Positions 12,954 to 52,649 of a stretch of DNA of 64,000 nucleotides are shown piece after piece. The stretch covers positions 1,021,530 through 1,085,529 of the forward strand of contig NZ_JAPHEH010000001.1 in NCBI RefSeq assembly GCF_029607905.1. Reading direction: 5' to 3'. Under the pieces are notes generated by a model. The model had not been told where the DNA came from. It made no database searches and saw only the letters and a list, made by a program, of their open reading frames with translations. This DNA comes from Thiovibrio frasassiensis. Its GTDB lineage: Bacteria > Desulfobacterota > Desulfobulbia > Desulfobulbales > Desulfurivibrionaceae. The stretch's first letter is position 1, and every line of letters begins with the position of its first letter. The position numbers and the translations under genes were made by a program.

Positions 12954-13033
12954 CTCCCCCTCCCTCTCCCTAACCCTCCCCCGCGAGGGGGGAGGGAATT
13001 ATTGAAGTTTTTGCAACATGGCTCAGTTGAAAC
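12954..13033. repeat. GC-rich intergenic repeat between gyrB and gyrA
   Basis: CCCTCTCCCTAACCCTCCCC leads into an inverted repeat, CCCTCCCCC at 12974-12982 against GGGGGGAGGG at 12987-12996. It is followed by AAGTTTTTGCAACATGGCTC. The same core and the TTTTGCAA...TGGCTCAG flank recur at 48221-48360, and the core alone at 17348 and 61261. No coding capacity. It probably folds into a hairpin within the gyrB-gyrA transcript. Confidence 0.7.
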
Positions 13034-17263: not shown

Positions 17264-17347
17264 TTGACCCGCCTCTGATTTTTTTGTGTCCCCATGAAGA
17301 CAACAACCACCCATTGTTCGGTAAGAAAATTGCAGAAACCAAGAAAG

Positions 17348-17444
17348 TCCCCTCTCCCCTGGCGGGAGAGGGTTAGGGTGAGGGGGAATATGCTGGATGT
17401 GCGGTCACCCGCCCCCCAACCCCCTCCCATCGAGGGAGGGGGAG
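17348..17444. repeat. GC-rich intergenic repeat between gpsA and DUF3343 gene
   Basis: Two hairpin-forming units are adjacent: CCCCTCTCCCCTGGCGGGAG with AGGGTTAGGGTGAGGGGG, then CCCCCTCCCATCGAGGGAGG. The TTAGGG/CCCTAA-flanked stem is shared with the repeats at 12954 and 48221. It ends just before the DUF3343 start codon at 17449. Confidence 0.65.
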
Positions 17445-42895: not shown

Positions 42896-43095
42896 ATAGT
42901 AAATTTACGGGAAAGAGAGGGAGGGTGTCAAGGGCGGCCTCGGTTTCTTTTCCGTGATAGACCGCGAAGCAGGAAAAAGCACAAGCGTTTTATCCGGCTG
43001 GAGAGCAGGTTTTGCATTTCAGTCAATAGAGTTATCTCGTAACCTGTTGAAATACAAACATAATTTACTTTCTTGTCAAATAGGACAAAAAAGGT

Positions 43096-43130
43096 TTGAC
43101 TTTGCTTTTTTAAAATGATAATTTTTATCA
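43096..43130 (+). promoter_or_regulatory. Peroxiredoxin promoter with Fur/PerR-like operator
   Basis: TGATAATTTTTATCA at 43116-43130 differs at one position from the 7-1-7 Fur consensus TGATAATnATTATCA and also resembles PerR boxes. It overlaps GATAAT (43117-43122), a likely -10; TTGACT at 43096-43101 is a candidate -35 with a short 15-base spacer. Repression relieved by peroxide or iron loss is the inferred logic. Confidence 0.6.
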
Positions 43131-43179
43131 AATACGAGGTGCTTTCTTTGCTAATTCCTTTTGAGAATGGAGATATGTC

Positions 43180-43791
43180 ATGGGTGAGAATTGTTGCGGT
43201 TGTTTGCAGGTTGGGCAGAATGTTCCCGATTTTACTATGGATACCTATGAGCCGACCGATTACGGCTTCGCGACCACGTCCTTGGAGCAGCTGAAAAAAG
43301 CAGGCAAGTGGACTGTGCTGGTTTTTTATCCGGCGGACTTTACCTTTGTCTGCTCCACCGAATTGGGCGACCTGGCTGATGAATATGACAATATCAAGGC
43401 AGCCGGCGCTGAGGTGGTCACGGTGAGCACCGATACCGTTTACACCCATCTCGCCTGGAAGCGGGAAGAGAAATTTCTCGAAAACGCCAAATACCCCATG
43501 GCGGCCGACCCAACCGGCGCGGTGTCCAAGCTGTTCGGGGTCTACGATTACGGAACAGGTCTGGCGTTGCGCGGCACCTTTATCATCAGCCCCGAGGGCA
43601 AACTGGTCGCCTCCGAGGTGAATTTTTACAACGTCGGCCGCAGTGCCAAGGAGCTTTTGCGAAAACTCAAAGCCAGCGTTTATGTGGCCGCCCATCCTGC
43701 CGAGGCCTGTCCGGCCCGCTGGGAAGCAGGCGACAAGACCCTGACTCCTGGGGCCAAACTGGTGGGCAAGGTGTACGACGCCCTGAAGTAA
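43180..43791 (+). CDS. AhpC-type 2-Cys peroxiredoxin
   Basis: 203 residues. Peroxidatic cysteine is Cys58 in YPADFTFVCSTEL, with the resolving cysteine in the C-terminal EACPARWEAG. It reduces peroxides using a thiol donor. The N-terminus MGENCCGCLQVGQ has three extra cysteines. Both active-site codons are ordinary cysteine (TGC/TGT), not UGA, so this is not a selenoprotein. ATG 43180 follows GAATGGAGATATGTC. The promoter carries a Fur/PerR-like box, in line with an oxidative-stress role. Monocistronic, ending at a strong bidirectional terminator. Confidence 0.95.
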   Translation: MGENCCGCLQVGQNVPDFTMDTYEPTDYGFATTSLEQLKKAGKWTVLVFYPADFTFVCSTELGDLADEYDNIKAAGAEVVTVSTDTVYTHLAWKREEKFLENAKYPMAADPTGAVSKLFGVYDYGTGLALRGTFIISPEGKLVASEVNFYNVGRSAKELLRKLKASVYVAAHPAEACPARWEAGDKTLTPGAKLVGKVYDALK

Positions 43792-43903
43792 TGCAGTAAG
43801 CCCGTTGCAATCGCGGGTTGATTGATTGCCAAAACACGGAACACCCTCTCCTCCGCTGCAACTCCAGCAGAGGGGGAGAGTTGCTTTTCTTCCTCCTCCC
43901 CTT

Positions 43904-43949
43904 GAAGCCCCCCATTCCTCCCTCCCTTGGAATGGGGGGCTTCTTTTTT
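43904..43949. terminator. Bidirectional terminator between peroxiredoxin and fusion gene
   Basis: GAAGCCCCCCATTCC (43904-43918) pairs perfectly over 15 bases with GGAATGGGGGGCTTC (43929-43943), followed by six T on the plus strand. It sits between two convergent genes, though the minus-strand side lacks a long T-run (reads GGGGAGGAGG). Confidence 0.85.
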
Positions 43950-43955
43950 CCCTTC

Positions 43956-45704
43956 TCAGCGGCGATTGTTTCCGTGCATGCCCGTCCAGAGGCCGAGAAA
44001 AAAATGGCGGGCATTGGTCCCCAGGGAGCGGGTCCGGTAGCCGCCTTCCTGCACGACCAGGGTGGGTAACCGCAGGTTGCCGAGCATCCGGCCGTTTTCC
44101 TCAAAATCCGCGCCAGAGAGCGACCAGGTGCCGGTGGGGTCATTTTTCGCCGGATCAAGTCCCAGAGCCACCACGAGAAAATGCGGCTTAAAGGCGCGGA
44201 TCCGCTTGAGAGCCCGCGCCAGCACCGGCCGGTAGCCGATGCCGTCCAGCGCTTCCGGCAGAGGATAGTTGCGATTAAATCCCCTGCCTGCCCCCTCCCC
44301 CACCTCTTCACTGAAACCGGAAAAATAGGGATAGGCAAAGCTGGGGTGTCCGTGGATCGAAAGGGTCAGGACATCGTTGCGCTGATAAAAGATATCCTGG
44401 GTGCCGTTGCCGTGGTGGTAATCGATATCGAGCACCGCCACCCTGCCTTCGCGGCTGAGATAATTGGCGGCGATCCCGGCCGAGTTGAAATAGCAGAAAC
44501 CGCCGAATACCCTGCTTTCGGCATGATGCCCCGGCGGTCGGACCAGGGCGTAGCTCAAGCGGTAGCCCTTTTCCAGGAGCTGGGCCGCAGTCAAGGCGCA
44601 GTCCACCGCGCCCTTGGCTGCCCGGTAGGCGTTGCGGTTCAGGGGGGTAAAGGTATCGATGCAGTAATACCCTGCCCGCACCGGCAGATCCTTGGGCGGT
44701 CTGGCCGCGTTGCGGATGGGGAAGACATAGGGGTAGACCGATTTCCCGGGCTCAAGGCTGGTGCAGACCTGATTGAGGTAATCGACAAATTTCGGGTCAT
44801 GGACCTTTTTGATGTGCCGCTCGGAAAAATGACGGGCCGGCAGCCGCTCGAATAAGCCGGTGGGCTCAATGCCCTTGAGGATGGAGGCAATGCGCACCGG
44901 CGCCTCCACGTAGCCCCGCTCGCGGATATGGTGGATATCGTGCTTTTCGTTGACGATGAGCCCGATCAATTTTTCCAGGGACTTGACGGGATGGACCTTG
45001 ATCGGCTCTTTCTTGATATAGCGGGGTCCACGGCGCTGTACCGGGTCGTCGGCAAACGATGCCACCACCATCTCGATGTAGCCGGCGGGGCAAGCCTTGC
45101 CGTACTTGCGGATCAGGATGGCGCGCACCACCTCGCGGGCCGTGGCCCGGGCCAGGGGTTGGCCGCTGCCCAGATCGTCGAAAACCAGATAGGGCGGGCA
45201 ATCGTACTCCGGCTTGAGCGGGGTTTCGTAGGCGGTATGGATGATGGGCAGGGCGCCGTAGCGTTCGTAAAATCTCAGCCGCGCCCGGCTTTGTTTCACC
45301 GTGGCCTCTTCTTGGCAGATCTTCGGGTCATCGGGCAAACATTCCATGAAGATCCCGTTGTCCCCGAGGGTGCGGGCCTCATCGCGAACCCGCTCGTAGA
45401 GGGCGCCGCCGACCCCGCTGGCTGCGGCTTTCGGGTCCACCGAGATGAAGTCGAGAAAGCAGAAACCAAGATCCGGAGCATGGTTGAGCAGGGCAAACCC
45501 CTTGACCCGGAGCTTCATGTCGTCGGCAATGAAGAGAATGGTGCGGAAGCGGTATTTTAAGGGGTTGGAAAGCTTCTGGGCAAGGCTGGTGATCTCGCTT
45601 TCCGAGATGGCTGAAAACTGGCTGCGCAGGATCTGCTGCACCTGCTCGATGGCCTCGCGGTCGATGGCCAGGGTATTGTCATAGATTCTGCGGATGCGAA
45701 ACAT
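43956..45704 (-). CDS. GNAT acetyltransferase fused to acetylpolyamine-type deacetylase
   Basis: 582 residues in two enzymes. Residues about 1-160 are GNAT-like, with the acetyl-CoA loop region SVDPKAAASGVGGALYERV near 88-106. Residues about 250-582 are a class II HDAC/acetylpolyamine amidohydrolase: active-site RPPGHHAES (histidines 393-394), zinc ligands D428 and H430 in DIDYHHGNGTQDIF, D517 in GLDPAKNDP, and GYYCIDTFTPLNRN, an APAH-type feature. All zinc ligands are present, so the deacetylase should be active. It is the last gene of the kamA operon, 21 bases after the GNAT gene. One polypeptide could both add and remove acetyl groups on an amine such as a beta-lysine derivative. Confidence 0.88.
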   Translation of the reverse strand: MFRIRRIYDNTLAIDREAIEQVQQILRSQFSAISESEITSLAQKLSNPLKYRFRTILFIADDMKLRVKGFALLNHAPDLGFCFLDFISVDPKAAASGVGGALYERVRDEARTLGDNGIFMECLPDDPKICQEEATVKQSRARLRFYERYGALPIIHTAYETPLKPEYDCPPYLVFDDLGSGQPLARATAREVVRAILIRKYGKACPAGYIEMVVASFADDPVQRRGPRYIKKEPIKVHPVKSLEKLIGLIVNEKHDIHHIRERGYVEAPVRIASILKGIEPTGLFERLPARHFSERHIKKVHDPKFVDYLNQVCTSLEPGKSVYPYVFPIRNAARPPKDLPVRAGYYCIDTFTPLNRNAYRAAKGAVDCALTAAQLLEKGYRLSYALVRPPGHHAESRVFGGFCYFNSAGIAANYLSREGRVAVLDIDYHHGNGTQDIFYQRNDVLTLSIHGHPSFAYPYFSGFSEEVGEGAGRGFNRNYPLPEALDGIGYRPVLARALKRIRAFKPHFLVVALGLDPAKNDPTGTWSLSGADFEENGRMLGNLRLPTLVVQEGGYRTRSLGTNARHFFLGLWTGMHGNNRR

Positions 45705-45725
45705 GATACCCCTGTTAAAAAATGG

Positions 45726-46199
45726 TCAGAGTTCTTTTAGGTAGACGACCTTGTCATCACCGTCCCGGTAAAAATCAGGGAAAACGCAGGCCACCCGATA
45801 GCCGTTTTTTTCATAAAATCCACGGGCCGAATCATAGCCCGGGGTGGATGAGGTGTCCACGTAAACCTTGGCCGATCCTTGGCCGGTAAGCTCGGTCTCC
45901 ATCTGCGTGAGCAGCAGCAGCCCGATCCCCTGTCTGCCAAGGTGTGGGTCCACGGCGACCCAATAGAGGTCAAAGCGGCGGTCGGTCATGGGGATCTCCC
46001 CGTAACAGATAAAGCCGACCACCTTATCTTCGCCGGTCTTGGCAATCAGGATTTGATAGTCATTCTTTTCCGGATTCAAGGTGTCGTCGATGACCTCGAT
46101 GGCCACCTCCACCTCCTGGGCATTGAAATTTTTTTGCTTGCGGACCAGTGCGAGCAATTGGCTGCGGTCTTTGGCTGCAATGGGCTGGATGGTGATCAT
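45726..46199 (-). CDS. GNAT-family N-acetyltransferase
   Basis: 157 residues. Motif A of GNAT fold: LYWVAVDPHLGRQGIGLLLL, with RQGIG as the acetyl-CoA pyrophosphate loop, and motif B YDSARGFYEKNGYRV. Acetylates a primary amine on a small molecule or protein. It starts inside the end of ligase 2 (4-base ATGA overlap) and is followed after 21 bases by the GNAT-deacetylase fusion. In known acetyl-beta-lysine synthesis the acetyltransferase AblB acts with the aminomutase AblA; this gene holds a comparable position but is shorter and not obviously AblB. Confidence 0.88.
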   Translation of the reverse strand: MITIQPIAAKDRSQLLALVRKQKNFNAQEVEVAIEVIDDTLNPEKNDYQILIAKTGEDKVVGFICYGEIPMTDRRFDLYWVAVDPHLGRQGIGLLLLTQMETELTGQGSAKVYVDTSSTPGYDSARGFYEKNGYRVACVFPDFYRDGDDKVVYLKEL

Positions 46200-47197
46200 A
46201 GGGGTACTCGCAGGGCGACCAGCCGGATGAATTCGCCGACCATCTCCGTATAGTTCATCTTGTTTTCGGCCACGGCTGCGGCAAAACCTCCATCCGGACT
46301 GAGGCAGGGGTTGGCATTGATCTCAAGGATGTACAGACCCCCCTGGTCGTCGAGGCGCAGATCAACCCGGGCGTAATCGCGCAGACCGAAGAGAGTAAAG
46401 CACTCCTGGGACATGCTCCGCATGGCCTGTTGCACGGGCGCGGGCAGGTTGTTGGGGAAGCAGCGGGGAGAATGGTTGTATTCAAAGGATTCCTCGTCCC
46501 ATTTACCCTTGTAGCTGACAATGCGGTGCAGATCGGCGGGAAATTCGGAAAAATCGATCTCCGCCAGGGGCATGACCCGGGGCTGGGGATAGCCGAAAAG
46601 CGAGATATTGAACTCTCTTCCGGCGATATACTCTTCCACCAGGATGGCGCCGTACTGTCCATAGAGTGCTTCCAGTCGGGGAAGCAGGTCGGCGATTTCC
46701 GCAACCACCGATTCCTGCTCGATGCCGATGGAGGCATCCTGGAAGCGGGGCTTGAGGATCACCGGGAAATGAAGGCCTGCGGGCCGCAGTACCTCACCGC
46801 CCTCGTAGAGGAAAAAGGCGGGGGTGTGCAGCCCCGAGGCACCGAGGAGTCGTTTGAGGGTGAGTTTGTCCGTGGAGAGCAGCAATGCCATGGCCGAGGA
46901 GCCGGTGAAGGGAATCCCCAGCAGTTCGAGGACTGCGGCCGGGTGGCCGATGAGGAGCGGATCTTCGTCCACCGACTCGCAGAGGTTGAAGGCAAGGTCT
47001 ATCCCTTCTTCTTTTACGGTGGCGACAAAAGCGGCCAGATCGCGGCTGAAGGGGATGCGCACCCGGGGCTGGCCCAGTTCGGTGAGCGCGGTCTCGATGG
47101 CCTCCACCTGGGCCAGGACATCGACGGAGGATTCCCAGTTCGGCTCACCCTTGGGGATGGGCTGGTTATGGATGATCCCGACTTTGAGGTGTTTCAT
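46196..47197 (-). CDS. D-Ala-D-Ala-ligase-like ATP-grasp ligase 2
   Basis: 333 residues from ATG 47197. ATP-grasp architecture: N-terminal VGIIHNQPIPKGEPNW and DLAFNLCESVDEDPLLIGH, central HFPVILKPRFQDASIGIEQE with the ATP-binding lysine, EEYIAGREFNISLFGYP, and the metal/ATP site VDLRLDDQGGLYILEINANP. Such enzymes form an amide via an acyl phosphate; relatives include D-Ala-D-Ala ligase and many peptide ligases of small-molecule pathways. Overlaps ligase 1 and the GNAT by 4 bases each, so stoichiometric production is likely. The substrate cannot be read from sequence. Confidence 0.9.
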   Translation of the reverse strand: MKHLKVGIIHNQPIPKGEPNWESSVDVLAQVEAIETALTELGQPRVRIPFSRDLAAFVATVKEEGIDLAFNLCESVDEDPLLIGHPAAVLELLGIPFTGSSAMALLLSTDKLTLKRLLGASGLHTPAFFLYEGGEVLRPAGLHFPVILKPRFQDASIGIEQESVVAEIADLLPRLEALYGQYGAILVEEYIAGREFNISLFGYPQPRVMPLAEIDFSEFPADLHRIVSYKGKWDEESFEYNHSPRCFPNNLPAPVQQAMRSMSQECFTLFGLRDYARVDLRLDDQGGLYILEINANPCLSPDGGFAAAVAENKMNYTEMVGEFIRLVALRVPL

Positions 47198-48177
47198 GGG
47201 GCCAGCCCGAGCCGGGCAATGGCGGCTTCGACGATCTCGCTGAGCAGCTCCTGGTAGGTGATGCCGTATTTGGCGGCGATGATGCAGAGGTCGGAATGCT
47301 CGGGATGCAGCCCGGCCAGGGGGTTGACCTCGATGAAATTGGGGATGCCGTTGGCGTCGGAGCGCAGGTCCACCCTCCCCCCGTCCCGGCAATCCAGAGC
47401 CTGCCAAGCGGCCAGGGCGGTTGCTTCCGCCTGGTGCGCTTCCGCATCGTCCACCTTGCGGTATTCCACCAGCTCTTCGCAGAACTCCTTGTTGTGATAC
47501 GAATAGACCTCCGGCTCGGAGTCGGGCAGCAGCACCACCTCCATGACCCCGATGGAGCGGGCTTTCGCGCCGTTGCCCACGATGCCTACGGTGAACTCCC
47601 TCCCCGGCAGATAGGCCTCCACCAGTACCGGCTGGTGGAAGGTTTGCAAGAGCTCGGCACAGACCACGTGCAGCTCTTCGCCGGTGCTGATCTTGGAGGC
47701 AGGGGTCACGCCCTTGCCGGTGCCCTCGGCCACCGGCTTGGCAAAGACCGGATAGGGCAGCGTCACCCCAGCCACGTCTTCGCTGCTTTTCACCACACTG
47801 AAGGCGGGGGTGGGGATGCCGAGATCCCGGACCACGTGTTTGCTCATTCCCTTGTGCAGGGTCAACCCCAGGACCAGAGGGTCGGAAAAGACGTAGGGAA
47901 TCCGGTGCGCCTCCAACAGGGCGGGCACCAGAGCTTCCCGGCCGAAGCCGTACAGCCCTTCGCAGATATTAAAAACCAGATCCCAGCGTTCCCCCCCGAG
48001 CAGCCGGGGCATGAGGCTCATGAAATTGCCGATGGGCACGGTTTCGTGGCCCATATCCCGCAGGGCCTGGTCAATGGCCGCGATGGTTGATTCCCGGTCG
48101 AACTCGGCGGTTTCTTCTTCCCCGTAGCCAGCGGCGAGATAGTCGCTCCGCAGGTCGTAGGTCATTCCAATCAGCAT
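47194..48177 (-). CDS. D-Ala-D-Ala-ligase-like ATP-grasp ligase 1
   Basis: 327 residues from ATG 48177, which follows CAAGGAACTCTC. ATP-grasp signatures: FNICEGLYGFGREALVPALL, GLTLHKGMSKHVVRD, LPYPVFAKPVAEGTGKGV, VLVEAYLPGREFTVGIVGNG and the metal-site RVDLRSDANGIPNFIEVNP. Only distantly similar to ligase 2, so the pair is likely to act on different substrates or in succession. It is the second gene of the kamA operon, downstream of a GC-rich repeat, and overlaps ligase 2 by 4 bases. A role in peptidoglycan synthesis is unlikely given the neighbours. Confidence 0.9.
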   Translation of the reverse strand: MLIGMTYDLRSDYLAAGYGEEETAEFDRESTIAAIDQALRDMGHETVPIGNFMSLMPRLLGGERWDLVFNICEGLYGFGREALVPALLEAHRIPYVFSDPLVLGLTLHKGMSKHVVRDLGIPTPAFSVVKSSEDVAGVTLPYPVFAKPVAEGTGKGVTPASKISTGEELHVVCAELLQTFHQPVLVEAYLPGREFTVGIVGNGAKARSIGVMEVVLLPDSEPEVYSYHNKEFCEELVEYRKVDDAEAHQAEATALAAWQALDCRDGGRVDLRSDANGIPNFIEVNPLAGLHPEHSDLCIIAAKYGITYQELLSEIVEAAIARLGLAP

Positions 48178-48220
48178 GAGAGAGTTCCTTGTTTTCAGGG
48201 CGATTAGCAAATGGCTAACA

Positions 48221-48360
48221 AGTTCCCTCCCCCCGAGGGGGGAGGGTTAGGGAGAGGGGGAAATAGCTGGACCGCTGGGTTGCAGCTTCACCCGCCCCCT
48301 GGCCCCTCCCGTCAAGGGAGGGGGGATTCAATTTGGCAGAATTTTGCAAGTGGCTCAGGG
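48221..48360. repeat. GC-rich intergenic repeat between kamA and ligase 1
   Basis: Contains two hairpins: CCCTCCCCCCGAGGGGGGAG (48225-48244) with GGTTAGGGAGAGGGGG, and CCCCTCCCGTCAAGGGAGGG (48303-48322). The right flank TTTTGCAAGTGGCTCAG matches the flank of the repeat at 12954. It interrupts the kamA operon and could act as an mRNA stability or processing hairpin giving different levels of kamA and the downstream genes. Confidence 0.7.
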
Positions 48361-48388
48361 CTAGGCGAAACATGGTAACCGTTTACGC

Positions 48389-49606
48389 TCAGCTTGCCCG
48401 GCTTGCCGCGCCGATCACGTCGGGGTAGCGGTAGACCTTGCCTTCGTAATTCCTGATCAAAAGATCGTTGCCCTCCCGGCCAACCACGGTTTCGGGAATG
48501 AGCGGGATCTTGCCGCCGCCGCCCGGCGCGTCGATCACATAGTTGGGCACGGCATAGCCGGAGGTGTGGCCTCGCAACCCTTGGTACATCTCCAACCCCT
48601 TGGAAACCGGGGTGCGGAAATGGGCCGAGCCGATGATGGGATCGCACTGGTACAGGTAATAGGGCTTGACCCGGATCTTGACCAAGCCGTGCATGAGCGT
48701 GCGCATGGTGTCCAGGGAATCGTTGATCCCGGAAAGGAGCACGGTCTGGCTGCCCAGGGGGATGCCTGAGTCGGCGAGCATGGCGCAGGCCTTGGTCGCT
48801 TCCGGGGTGAGTTCGTCGGGGTGGGTGCAGTGGATGCTCATCCACAGCGGGTGATATTTTTTCAGCATGGCTACCAGTTCCGGGGTGATGCGCTGGGGCA
48901 GCACCATGGGGGCCTTGGTGCCGATGCGGATCATCTCCACGTGCGGGATCCGGCGCAACCGGCTCAGCAGCCATTCGATCTGCTCGTCACCCATGGTCAG
49001 CGGATCGCCGCCGGAAAGGAGGACATCGCGGATCCCCGGGTTGGCGGCGATATAGGCGATGGCTTTCTGCCAGCGGGCCGGGCTGTGGCTCTTGCGCCGG
49101 CCGACCATGCGGGAGCGGGTGCAGTAGCGGCAGTAGCTCGAACAGTAGTCGGTGACCAGAAAGAGGACCCGGTCGGGATAGCGGTGCACCAAGCCCGGCA
49201 CCGGAGAGTGATTGTCCTCGCCCAGGGGATCGTGTTCCTCGCCCTGGGAAACCAGCAACTCACTCAAGGTCGGCACCATGGTGCGCCGGAGCGGCTGCTG
49301 CGGATTGTCAGGGGAAATGAGGCTGGCGTAGTAGGGAGTAATGGCCAGGGGCAGAGTGGCGCCATTAAAGGCCATGGCCTGCCGCTCGCTGTCCGAGAGG
49401 TCTATGAGCTTGCCGAGTTTTTTGAGGCTGGTGATGCGGTTGCGGAGCTGCCAGTGCCAGTCGTGCCAGTCGTCATCGGTGGCGAGGGGGAAATGGCGTT
49501 GCCGGAAGGTGGGGCTGGGGGGGTGGTTGGAAAAGGGAAAGGCGTTGGTGGGGCAACAACCTGGAGGTTCCTCTTGCTCCTCAATGTGGACAACCTTTTG
49601 CTGCAT
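48389..49606 (-). CDS. kamA: Lysine 2,3-aminomutase-family radical SAM enzyme
   Basis: 405 residues from ATG 49606 (after AAGGAGACGCACA). The radical-SAM cluster cysteines are C155, C159 and C162 in TDYCSSYCRYCTR; the PLP lysine is K366 in DAPGGGGKIP. D322 (in YQCDPIIG) and D359 lie exactly 37 apart and 44/7 residues before the PLP lysine, matching D293 and D330 of Clostridium lysine 2,3-aminomutase that bind the epsilon-amine. Glutamate 2,3-aminomutases have Lys and Asn there. So conversion of L-lysine to L-beta-lysine is the prediction. It heads the operon of two ATP-grasp ligases, a GNAT and a GNAT-deacetylase. Expressed from the 246-base upstream gap. Confidence 0.9.
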   Translation of the reverse strand: MQQKVVHIEEQEEPPGCCPTNAFPFSNHPPSPTFRQRHFPLATDDDWHDWHWQLRNRITSLKKLGKLIDLSDSERQAMAFNGATLPLAITPYYASLISPDNPQQPLRRTMVPTLSELLVSQGEEHDPLGEDNHSPVPGLVHRYPDRVLFLVTDYCSSYCRYCTRSRMVGRRKSHSPARWQKAIAYIAANPGIRDVLLSGGDPLTMGDEQIEWLLSRLRRIPHVEMIRIGTKAPMVLPQRITPELVAMLKKYHPLWMSIHCTHPDELTPEATKACAMLADSGIPLGSQTVLLSGINDSLDTMRTLMHGLVKIRVKPYYLYQCDPIIGSAHFRTPVSKGLEMYQGLRGHTSGYAVPNYVIDAPGGGGKIPLIPETVVGREGNDLLIRNYEGKVYRYPDVIGAASRAS

Positions 49607-49852
49607 TGTGCGTCTCCTTGCTGGATGGTCGATGGATCCATTAAAAAGATTAAATAATTTCAAAAGGATACCGCTGATCCCCGCAAGCGGGTCAGTGTAT
49701 TTGATGGAACCAGTTTATGCTCATTGCGCAAGAAAGTGTCAAGAAAAAAAGCAGGAGGGGTATTTTTTTTAACTTATTGTTTTTACGTAAATTTTTGTCG
49801 GTCTCTGTTTGCCCGTGCCGTTGTCGGAGCGGGGGTGGAAGGAGGATGCAGG

Positions 49853-50206
49853 TTAACTACCTAAAATAATTTGTAATAATTCAGAGAGGTCTCGGAAGCT
49901 GAAGGGCTTGGGGGTAACCCCACAAAAGCCATGTTCGCTGAAGTTGGCCATGCTCGGATCATCGGCATATCCGCTGGAGACAACGGCTTTTACTTGGGGG
50001 TCGAGCTGGCGGAGCCGGGCAATGGCTTCCTTGCCGCCCATGCCGCCGGGCACGGTCAGATCCATAATGACCAGATCGAAGGGCTGTCCGTTGGCCTCCA
50101 GGTAAAGGGTAATGGCTTCTGCCCCGTCCTTGGCGGTGTGGGGTCCATAGCCGAGTTTCTGGCGCCTGGCGGTGGAAACATTGCGGATGAGTTCTTCATC
50201 GTCCAT
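49853..50206 (-). pseudogene. Detached receiver domain, probably truncated at its 5' end
   Basis: 117 residues from ATG 50206. It is a receiver with acidic pocket DDEE, phospho-aspartate in FDLVIMDLTVPGGMGG and lysine in VTPKPFSF. The first ATG falls inside the first beta strand: in-frame codons just upstream read GKILI directly before MDDEE, and the frame stays open towards the preceding kinase gene without an ATG, GTG or TTG that is convincing. It therefore looks like the tail of a hybrid kinase whose body is lost, or a second receiver moved out of frame from the kinase at 50295. Still possibly translated from a rare start. Confidence 0.6.
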
Positions 50207-50294
50207 GATCAGAATTTTGCCTGGCCTTTGTTGAGCGGTGCCCCCTGTTGTGTTGCGATGCTCTCTTCTGCGCGGGAGGAGGCCTGTGTCAGCG

Positions 50295-52649
50295 TTATTC
50301 CCCGGACTGGGGGAAAGAGAAGTGGTCTAACCGCTCCATGAGACTGGCGATGGTGAAGGGTTTTGAGACATAATCGTCCATGCCCGCGGCCAGGCATTTC
50401 TCGCTATACCCCTTCATGGCATGGGCGGTTAAGGCGATGATCGGAATATGGCGCGTTGTTCCTTGTTCCAGGGCGCGGATTTTTTCGGTTGCCTCAAAGC
50501 CGTCCATTTCCGGCATCTGCACATCCATTAGAATCAGGTCGAAATGTTCGGCCCCATATTTTTCCAAGGCATCCAGCCCATTATTGGCGATCACCACGGA
50601 ATGCCCCTCCTTCTCCAGCAGTTTTTGCGCCACCTTTTGGTTCACAAGGTTGTCTTCCGCCAGCAGGATATGGAGTTTTTCCTTCTTTCCCGCCTGTGGT
50701 GTTGCCTGTTGGGGGGCAGGGTGTTCCGCCTGGACAAAAACGGTGGAGATACTCCTGAGCAGATCCTTTTGCCGACAGGGTTTGAGCAGATAGGCGTGCA
50801 CCCCGAGGCGCTGGCTTCTAACCTTATCTTCCGGCAGACCGGCGGAGGTGAGGATGATCACCGGCAGCTCAGCCAGCTGTTGCTGTTGGCGGATTTTTTC
50901 AATCAGGGTGAAACCGTCCATTTCCGGCATCTGGATATCGATAATGGCAAGGGCAAAGGGGTCTGCCGCCGCAAGGTGCTTCTGCAACATCTCCAGCGCC
51001 TCTGCCCCGCCGGAAGCAGCCTGTGCCTGCATGTTCAATTGCCCCAGTTTCTGGAGCAGGATTTTTTGGTTGATGGGGTTGTCGTCCACAACCAGAACGG
51101 ATTTTCCTGCCAAAAAGGCCGGAGAGGCTTGGGGGATGACTTTTGCTTGCGATTGTTTCTCGCAGAGGATGGTGAAGTAAAAGGTGGAGCCGACATTGGG
51201 TGTGCTTTCCAGCCAGATGCGCCCTCCCATGAGATGAACAAGGCGGGACGAGATGGAGAGTCCCAGACCGGTGCCACCAAATTTTCTTGCCATGGAGCTG
51301 TCTACCTGGCTGAAGGCCTCAAAAATCCGTTGCTGCTGCTCTTCGGGTATGCCGATGCCTTTGTCGGAGACCGCAAAGAGTAATTCAACCACGCCGTCGT
51401 ACTCCGCTTTTCGCTGTACCTTCAGCAGAATCTGGCCGGATTCGGTGAATTTAATGCTGTTTCCCATGAGGTTGGTAATAATCTGCTGGAGACGAAAGGC
51501 ATCGCCAACCAGAAATTCCGGGACATCCTCCTCGATCTGGCACAACAGCTCCAGTTTTTTCTCGTGTGCCCGGACCGCTTGTTCTTGCGTGGTATCCTCG
51601 ACGGTTTCCCGAAGATTGAAGTCGTTGTAAGTGATGTCCAGCTTCTGCGCCTCGATTTTGGAAAAATCCAGGATATCGTTAATGACCTGGATGAGGCGGT
51701 TGGCCGAAAGGTCGATGGTTTCCAGGAAATCCCGCTGTTCTTCCGTCAGTTCCGTTTGCAGGGCCAGCTGGGTCATGCCGATGACCCCGTTCATGGGGGT
51801 GCGGATTTCATGGCTCATGTTGGCAAGAAATTCTGATTTTGCCCGGCTTGCCGCCTCGGCGGCCTCTTTCGCCAGGACAAGGTCTTTGGTCCGTTCCTCA
51901 ATTTTTTCTTCAAGATCGCTATGTGCTTGGATGAGGGCGTGATCCCGGAGTTCAATCTCACCAAGCATTTCGTTAAAGCCCATGGTCAGCGCGCCGATCT
52001 CGTCCTTGTTTTTCACCGAGGCCCGCAGAGAGTAATCCTGATTGCGCGTAATCCCGCGGATGGTTGCGGCAAGCTGTTCAATGGGGCGGGTGAAGACCCG
52101 TTGCAGTTTTCCGGTGATAAGCCAGACGAGAAAAAAGGTTACTCCCATGACCAGGAGGGCGACCAGGAGATACCGTTGGAGCAGGAGTGGTTCATCATGG
52201 CGATCGGAGCGGGCAAAGACCATCCCCACCGTTTTATCCTGGAGCTTTATTTCCGTAAGAAAATCGATGGAATCGTTGCCAAAGACCGGGGTATTGAGCG
52301 GGATGGTCGGTGGTTGAAACTCGGTTTCGGTCATCGCCTTGTTCGTGGTATAGGTGGCAAAGACTCGGTGGTCCGGGGTGAGGATGGCAGCATATACGAT
52401 ACACGGTTCGGCGCGCAACGCCAGCAGGGTTTCCCTGGCGGCGTCCTGATCGGAAAAAACCACGGTGGATTTTGCATTGTCGGCGATGGCTTTGGTCAAG
52501 ACAGCCAGGTTTTTTATCAGGAGATGACGCAAGGTGAAAAAATCATAGGCGCACATGACGCTGTTGACAAAAATCAACACCCCGCCGGTAACCAGCATGA
52601 TTATCAGCAGGAGCTTTTTTCTGATCGGGAGCGCGTTAAAGTATTCCAT
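50295..52649 (-). CDS. Hybrid histidine kinase, HAMP and two receivers
   Basis: 784 residues. N-terminal helix ([20 protein letters not shown]), a periplasmic region of about 120 residues of the CHASE8 kind ([20 protein letters not shown]), second helix ([19 protein letters not shown]), HAMP, coiled coil, HisKA with [17 protein letters not shown], HATPase ([22 protein letters not shown]) and two tandem receivers ([46 protein letters not shown]). BarA-like layout. The start overlaps the YfiR-like gene by 14 bases, and a TonB receptor precedes that. The three form a sensing cassette seen repeatedly in proteobacteria. Confidence 0.92.

Follow-up and report, generated by a model that had tools for sequence, protein, structure and literature searches.

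The operon and its products

We have analysed a 64,000-nucleotide stretch of the genome of Thiovibrio frasassiensis (Desulfobacterota; RefSeq assembly GCF_029607905.1, contig NZ_JAPHEH010000001.1, positions 1,021,530 to 1,085,529 of the forward strand), which we refer to as the window, and in particular an operon of five minus-strand genes at its positions 43,956 to 49,606. The genes encode a KamA-type lysine 2,3-aminomutase, two ATP-grasp ligases that we call AG1 and AG2, a small GNAT acetyltransferase, and a two-domain protein, the GNAT-deacetylase, with an acetyltransferase domain at its N-terminus and a deacetylase domain at its C-terminus. The host genome is 2.84 Mb in size. In window coordinates, the features are as follows:

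48389..49606, minus: KamA-type lysine 2,3-aminomutase, radical SAM, of its own subfamily; 405 amino acids (aa) read from 49606 to 48389, ATG start with AAGGAG ahead of it; CxxxCxxC at 155-162; R164, D322, D359
48177-47194, minus: AG1, ATP-grasp ligase with D-Ala-D-Ala ligase fold; 327 aa; E25, D27 and E73 acidic; E231 and D296 in the acceptor region
47197-46196, minus: AG2, second ATP-grasp ligase; 333 aa; G303-G304 at the acceptor Ser-Leu position of D-Ala-D-Ala ligase (Ddl)
46199-45726, minus: small GNAT acetyltransferase; 157 aa; relative of PDB 2r7h
45704-43956, minus: GNAT-deacetylase, two domains; 582 aa
45225..45704, minus: N-terminal GNAT domain of the GNAT-deacetylase, residues ~1-160, placed by PF00583 and secondary structure
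43986..44960, minus: C-terminal deacetylase domain, residues 249-573; RPPGHH 389-394, D428, H430, D517, EGGY 553-556
48215..48350, minus: dispersed hairpin-rich repeat between kamA and AG1
43904..43943, no strand assigned: strong hairpin (z -4.4) between the operon and a convergent AhpC/TSA-family gene

This layout is as the initial annotation had described it from the letters alone. AG1 and AG2 overlap by 4 bases, as do AG2 and the small GNAT, the GNAT-deacetylase follows the small GNAT after a gap of 21 bases, and between kamA and AG1 lie 211 bases that include the hairpin-rich repeat. Because the repeat has 10 matches in the genome, its own copy counted, it is a dispersed element and not a component of the gene system; copies are also found at window positions 12962-12998 and 17345-17442. 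The Pfam matches of the five proteins are Radical_SAM and LAM_C for KamA, Dala_Dala_lig_C for each ligase, Acetyltransf_7 and Acetyltransf_1 for the small GNAT, and Hist_deacetyl with a weak GNAT match for the GNAT-deacetylase.

Linkage and co-occurrence of the five families

The linkage of the five families is real, widely conserved and more than chance. A scan with the GNAT-deacetylase gave at least 591 relatives, and the best 80 loci, several of them closely related to the window, were searched with profiles in six frames. The full set of families was called in 38 loci and one or more partners in 51, and 29 had no partner. Where the flanks were long (40 loci), the set was complete in 30 and the GNAT-deacetylase was alone in 8. 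The initial annotation had named absence of conserved linkage as the result that would speak against a common pathway; instead, complete sets occur in several gene orders and several phyla. Relatives of the window at 85-91% identity come from records titled Desulfurivibrio, Desulfobulbaceae, Deltaproteobacteria metagenome bins and the like, and the titles of the 80 loci, which for metagenomes may be wrong, include Deltaproteobacteria, Bacteroidetes, Planctomycetes, Phycisphaerae, Spirochaetes, Dehalococcoidia, Ignavibacteria, Gammaproteobacteria, Rhodospirillaceae and Acidobacteria, among others. Sample origins named in these titles include Lac Pavin, a freshwater lake, and marine samples. Carriers recorded under a strain name include Dasania sp. 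GY-MA-18, Ancylomarina sp. 16SWW S1-10-2 and Pseudodesulfovibrio pelocollis SB368. The order KamA-AG1-AG2-GNAT-deacetylase was found in 15 loci, KamA-AG1-AG2-deacetylase-GNAT in 12 (with a further 4 in which the last two are fused), KamA-deacetylase-AG1-AG2-GNAT in 5 and deacetylase-AG1-AG2-GNAT-KamA in 2, and this shuffling argues against the genes having simply been inherited together as one block. Moreover, in 30 genomes with no ligase beside the GNAT-deacetylase, AG1 scoring above 290 bits was present elsewhere in 27, mostly with a second ligase of the same fold about 1 kb away; one had AG1 fragments and two had none, one of these two being a 0.7 Mb record.

Co-occurrence was assessed in 198 genomes from the phylum, with thresholds set by eye (AG1 at least 270 bits, KamA at least 498 bits). 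AG1 was found in 70 genomes, KamA in 77, the small GNAT in 65, the full GNAT-deacetylase in 18 and AblB, the acetyltransferase of a known osmolyte pathway considered below, in 8. KamA was present in 66 of the 70 genomes with AG1 and the small GNAT in 63, and AG1 in 17 of the 18 with GNAT-deacetylase, the eighteenth having AG1 fragments beside KamA. AblB showed no association, occurring in 2 of the 70. AG2 was counted from the loci that were read: among 53 AG1 loci it lay in the same stretch in 41, with KamA in 39, the small GNAT in 35 and all of them in 31. Given that AG1 tracks KamA and the small GNAT, while the GNAT-deacetylase is restricted to 18 of 198 genomes, the core of the cassette is KamA, AG1, AG2 and the small GNAT, and the GNAT-deacetylase is an optional add-on.

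In the Bacteroidota, 148 genomes around one GNAT-deacetylase carrier were sampled and relatives of AG1 at E 1e-60 were present in 40; the 14 loci read comprised seven with AG1-AG2-GNAT-KamA lacking the deacetylase, two with AG1-KamA and five with AG1 alone. In two Bacteroidota loci tested, recG (L211, L212; L numbers denote loci) and gpsA (L212) lie upstream and were judged incidental. Relatives of AG1 in L210, L213 and L215 have no AG2, KamA or GNAT nearby, and an rsmB-like gene directly follows in L210 and L213.

With regard to other genes, the sole neighbour group common to many loci (28 proteins in 20 loci) consists of two-component regulators. The 8 of 28 tested were histidine kinases or a PAS sensor; we rejected the group as an additional partner, as distances and strands varied, which fits common genes. 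Directly upstream of kamA in the window, at 49853-52649 on the minus strand, are genes for a receiver-domain protein and for a hybrid histidine kinase carrying a CHASE8 sensor. A promoter scan upstream of kamA gave no match, and no known RNA family reached its gathering threshold at 43000-50400. At the other end, the AhpC/TSA-family gene (43180-43791) converges on the operon with the hairpin in between. The hairpin fits the end of the AhpC/TSA-family gene, because its T run is on the plus strand, although it may terminate both transcripts. A role in antiphage defence was rejected, as none of the five proteins had a PADLOC match at E 0.001.

Enzyme families and their likely substrates

The window KamA has the CxxxCxxC cluster motif, and its R164, D322 and D359 correspond to R134, D293 and D330, the substrate residues of the solved lysine enzyme 2a5h, as expected of a lysine 2,3-aminomutase. 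The motif and these residues are invariant in our KamA alignment (A3), and R134, D293 and D330 are kept in all 71 proteins of a KamA tree. This tree (FastTree, arbitrary root, no support values) covers proteins of 330-520 residues found by the gene caller, with L053-L058, L061 and L062 left out as close relatives. In it, the main cassette group is distinct from the branches that contain the AblB-linked and fermentation KamAs, and the cassette KamAs of L085, L102, L161 and L164 and of L150 and L160 fall on other branches, as if lysine 2,3-aminomutase activity had been recruited more than once by such cassettes. Beta-lysylation of elongation factor P (EpmB) was ruled out, as KamA scores 254 bits with TIGR03821 and does not reach the cut-off of 369.3. 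A third KamA paralogue of the genome (L174:6031-7113; C1:1929033-1930070) scores 445 bits with AblA, is under the equivalog cut-offs and has no ligase of the five-profile set nearby. Separately, in L217 and L220 relatives of AG1 adjoin a KamA with glutamine at position 293, and that of L220 has arginine 2,3-aminomutase as its top score, though under that cut-off; this small sample of one subtype is possibly a parallel pathway built on beta-arginine.

An aminomutase with lysine-type residues and a GNAT in the same operon would also be consistent with a variant of the pathway for the osmolyte N-epsilon-acetyl-beta-lysine, from which the initial annotation had derived the cassette. However, the best equivalog for the window KamA, the AblA model TIGR03820, scores 486 bits, under its cut-off of 525.4, and the same genome has a canonical ablA-ablB pair elsewhere (C1:700017-702135, with AblB at C1:701335-702135), whose products reach 775.7 bits for AblA and 346.9 bits for AblB against a cut-off of 205.1. 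With ablAB separate and not tracking AG1 across genomes, and with the two ligases left unexplained, we rejected the osmolyte as the main explanation; it is improbable, and the derivation was not supported.

Judged by their sequences, AG1 and AG2 are not cell-wall Ddl. Against the Ddl model TIGR01205 (cut-off 245.65) they score 107.4 and 105.4 bits, whereas the genome's own Ddl, encoded elsewhere, scores 291.3. The closest structure to the AG1 predicted model (predicted local distance difference test, pLDDT, 94.9) is Pseudomonas DdlB, yet in an alignment with 16 Ddl sequences the histidine of the Ddl HG motif is glutamate in AG1. In the numbering of E. coli DdlB, histidine 63 is replaced by E in both ligases, tyrosine 216 (also named in the title of PDB 1iow) by E in AG1 or W in AG2, and leucine 282 by D in AG1 or G in AG2. 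Thus, where Ddl has the substrate-loop tyrosine and the acceptor Ser-Leu, all three present in 16 of 16 Ddl controls, the window AG1 has E231 and S295-D296 and the window AG2 has W233 and G303-G304. Across 26 AG2 sequences the acceptor serine is kept in 8 and the leucine in none, and N71, E74, K232, W233, N296, P297 and G304 are constant in all 26. That the ligases might act in peptidoglycan synthesis, a possibility raised at the outset, was therefore tested and rejected on the low Ddl scores, the replaced residues and the separate Ddl. At L166:2143-4335 a 731-residue protein combines an AG2-like ligase domain with a methyltransferase domain.

Among 87 AG1 proteins, which include close relatives of the window, E25 is found in 86, D or E at position 27 in 86, and E73, R80, E81 and R268 in all 87. 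We read the constant acids as the place where a donor carrying two amines, beta-lysine, may bind. R268 and S295 (82 of 87) are at positions that bind the acceptor carboxylate in Ddl. Positions 231 and 296 vary by subtype, being E/D in the window type, W/C in the Bacteroidota and polyamine-linked types, G with T or S in a third, and other letters in a minority, and may be read as the acceptor site. The acidic acceptor pocket of the window subtype suggests a basic acceptor, for example lysine or a second beta-lysine.

The small GNAT belongs to the same family as PDB 2r7h (198.9 bits across 156 residues), which was deposited under the putative name D-alanine N-acetyltransferase. Among papers that mention the code, none concerns this protein by title, and one is on another GNAT (PMC4942678). 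The AblB model TIGR03827 does not match the small GNAT at E 0.001. In three loci (L140, L142, L163) the small GNAT is in a single open frame with AG2, and in seven (L088, L099, L111, L113, L123, L126, L161) it is fused to the C-terminus of the GNAT-deacetylase. Since it is fused to either partner, this is strong evidence that ligation, acetylation and deacetylation act on one compound.

In the GNAT-deacetylase, the N-terminal GNAT domain is supported by a PF00583 score of 21.4 bits against a cut-off of 20.7 and by predicted secondary structure. The nearest solved relatives of the deacetylase domain are acetylpolyamine amidohydrolases, at 34-38% identity compared with ~26% for the HDAC6 type, and its best fold match is the acetylpolyamine amidohydrolase 6pi8 (37% identity). 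The zinc ligands and catalytic tyrosine are invariant across 22 GNAT-deacetylase sequences, the RPPGHH, EGGY, zinc and tyrosine residues of the cluster 4 acetylpolyamine amidohydrolases are present, and the L2 loop region can be aligned to PsApaH, although it is a low-confidence region of the predicted model. Because the domain is of this small-molecule type, reversible acetylation is plausible. The initial annotation had gone further, giving the product its own recycling step; as the GNAT-deacetylase is optional (18 of 198 genomes, compared with 70 for AG1), recycling is not an integral step.

It could instead be that the operon modifies macromolecules, the ligases acting on the cell wall or the GNAT-deacetylase regulating proteins through lysine acetylation. 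AG1 does have the D-Ala-D-Ala ligase fold and AG2 the same Pfam domain, and according to a survey of bacterial deacylases the cluster 4 enzyme PsApaH is also active on lysine peptides (PMC11532494). This is very improbable, however, given the Ddl scores and the loss of Ddl Y216 and L282 described above, together with a deacetylase that aligns across the polyamine-type access loop and tracks the ligase core.

The main rival is a polyamine conjugate, since in some loci the ligases follow polyamine genes and the deacetylase is of polyamine type. On this account a polyamine would be the acceptor to which the ligases couple beta-lysine or some other amino acid, and the acetylated polyamine end of the conjugate would be the substrate of the deacetylase domain. 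In L152, L154, L155 and L156, AG1-AG2 follow homologues of agmatinase and pyruvoyl arginine decarboxylase (called by Pfam in L156 and by similarity clusters in the other three), with a deoxyhypusine synthase homologue also ahead of the ligases in L152, L154 and L156 and the small GNAT directly behind AG1-AG2 in L154-L156. L067, where the GNAT-deacetylase stands alone, likewise has a relative of deoxyhypusine synthase close by, encoded on the opposite strand. Outside these loci, however, no polyamine gene of the three kinds was seen in the neighbour clusters (with Pfam run on some neighbours), and retention in AG1 of the acceptor carboxylate-binding positions of Ddl is a better fit to an amino acid, so that we regard a polyamine conjugate as unlikely, though more probable than the osmolyte or a macromolecular target. 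In six genomes of the polyamine-linked kind (L175-L180), KamA adjoins a gene of 84-106 codons whose product, judged by eye, resembles a MerR-type regulator.

An acetylated beta-lysine peptide and known pathways

We propose, with a probability of roughly 0.55, that KamA, AG1, AG2 and the small GNAT produce an acetylated beta-lysine peptide, with deacetylation optional. The four would act as a single biosynthetic unit in which 1) KamA would convert L-lysine to beta-lysine; 2) AG1 would phosphorylate the carboxyl of beta-lysine, which would then be coupled to a second amino acid through the latter's amine; 3) AG2 would add a third unit; and 4) the small GNAT would acetylate one amine of the product. 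In some lineages, including that of the window, the deacetylase domain of the GNAT-deacetylase would then remove the acetyl group, so that the product would change its charge or be recycled. The identity of the product and of every substrate is inferred, as are the sequence of the reactions, the site of acetylation, and a charged or polyamine-like role in the cytoplasm. The earlier idea of an amide-joined, acetylated beta-lysine product is thus retained, in view of the conserved linkage, the non-Ddl ligases and the lysine-binding residues of KamA, and its framing as an osmolyte is not.

Several observations weigh against this proposal. The GNAT-deacetylase is alone in 29 of the 80 loci, some on short contigs, and AG1-like genes lack the other four in 8 of 56 AG1-anchored loci, a set hand-picked from matches (40 + 16) and not random. 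Four of the 70 AG1 genomes have no KamA of at least 498 bits: in two the copies are cut, and in the other two they score 410-413 bits. The small GNAT is absent from 7 of the 70; the Fisher tests, extreme for AG1 with KamA and with the small GNAT, are uncorrected for shared ancestry. In the polyamine-linked loci KamA is located elsewhere. As E231 is found in only 18 of 26 AG1 sequences, and in 48 of the larger set of 87, a basic acceptor would at best be a feature of one subtype, and the E25/D27 insertion of AG1 aligns only near the amine-binding glutamate of Ddl. Finally, the deacetylase has PTG at the gatekeeper motif, where the bacterial acetylpolyamine enzymes compared in PMC11532494 have PIS.

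More tentatively, and with less confidence than in the peptide itself, one could envisage small beta-lysine peptides inside the cell that form a phylum-spanning, undescribed class. Two dedicated ATP-grasp ligases would make them, a fusion of writer and eraser would convert them between an acetylated and a free form, and they would act as polyamine-like metabolites of tunable charge, with sister versions in the Bacteroidota that use other acceptors and, in one case, an arginine-like aminomutase.

No description of the cassette was found in the open-access literature, judged from titles and the openings of abstracts, with most subscription papers lying outside this scope; as far as searched, the pathway is real, widely conserved and undescribed. 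AG1 occurs in about one third of the genomes sampled from the phylum, and a lysine 2,3-aminomutase and the small GNAT nearly always accompany it. Going by family name, one would take the components for an enzyme of osmolyte synthesis, ligases of the cell wall and a histone deacetylase, labels that are probably all misleading. The proposal gives a testable role to the solved acetyltransferase structure 2r7h and to the GNAT-deacetylase fusion, and the predicted metabolite could be found by mass spectrometry of cultured bacteria.

Of the known systems, the cluster 4 classical deacylases resemble the window enzyme in RPPGHH, EGGY and the identity to 6pi8, with an L2 region that can be aligned, but it differs from them in its N-terminal GNAT domain, in PTG for PIS and in tracking a beta-lysine ligase core; the passages of the survey that name GNAT, three in number, do not describe a GNAT-deacetylase fusion (PMC11532494). 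AG1 and AG2 share homology and fold with Ddl (TIGR01205), with scores far under the family cut-off. AblA-AblB (TIGR03820, TIGR03827) likewise combine a lysine 2,3-aminomutase with a GNAT acetyltransferase, whereas the cassette has a KamA of a different subfamily, a GNAT with no AblB match, two ligases and an optional deacetylase. In N-acetylglutaminylglutamine amide synthesis (ngg, asnO), an ATP-grasp enzyme and a GNAT, which are also found fused, make an acetylated dipeptide solute; that pathway differs from the cassette in having no aminomutase, no deacetylase and other substrates.

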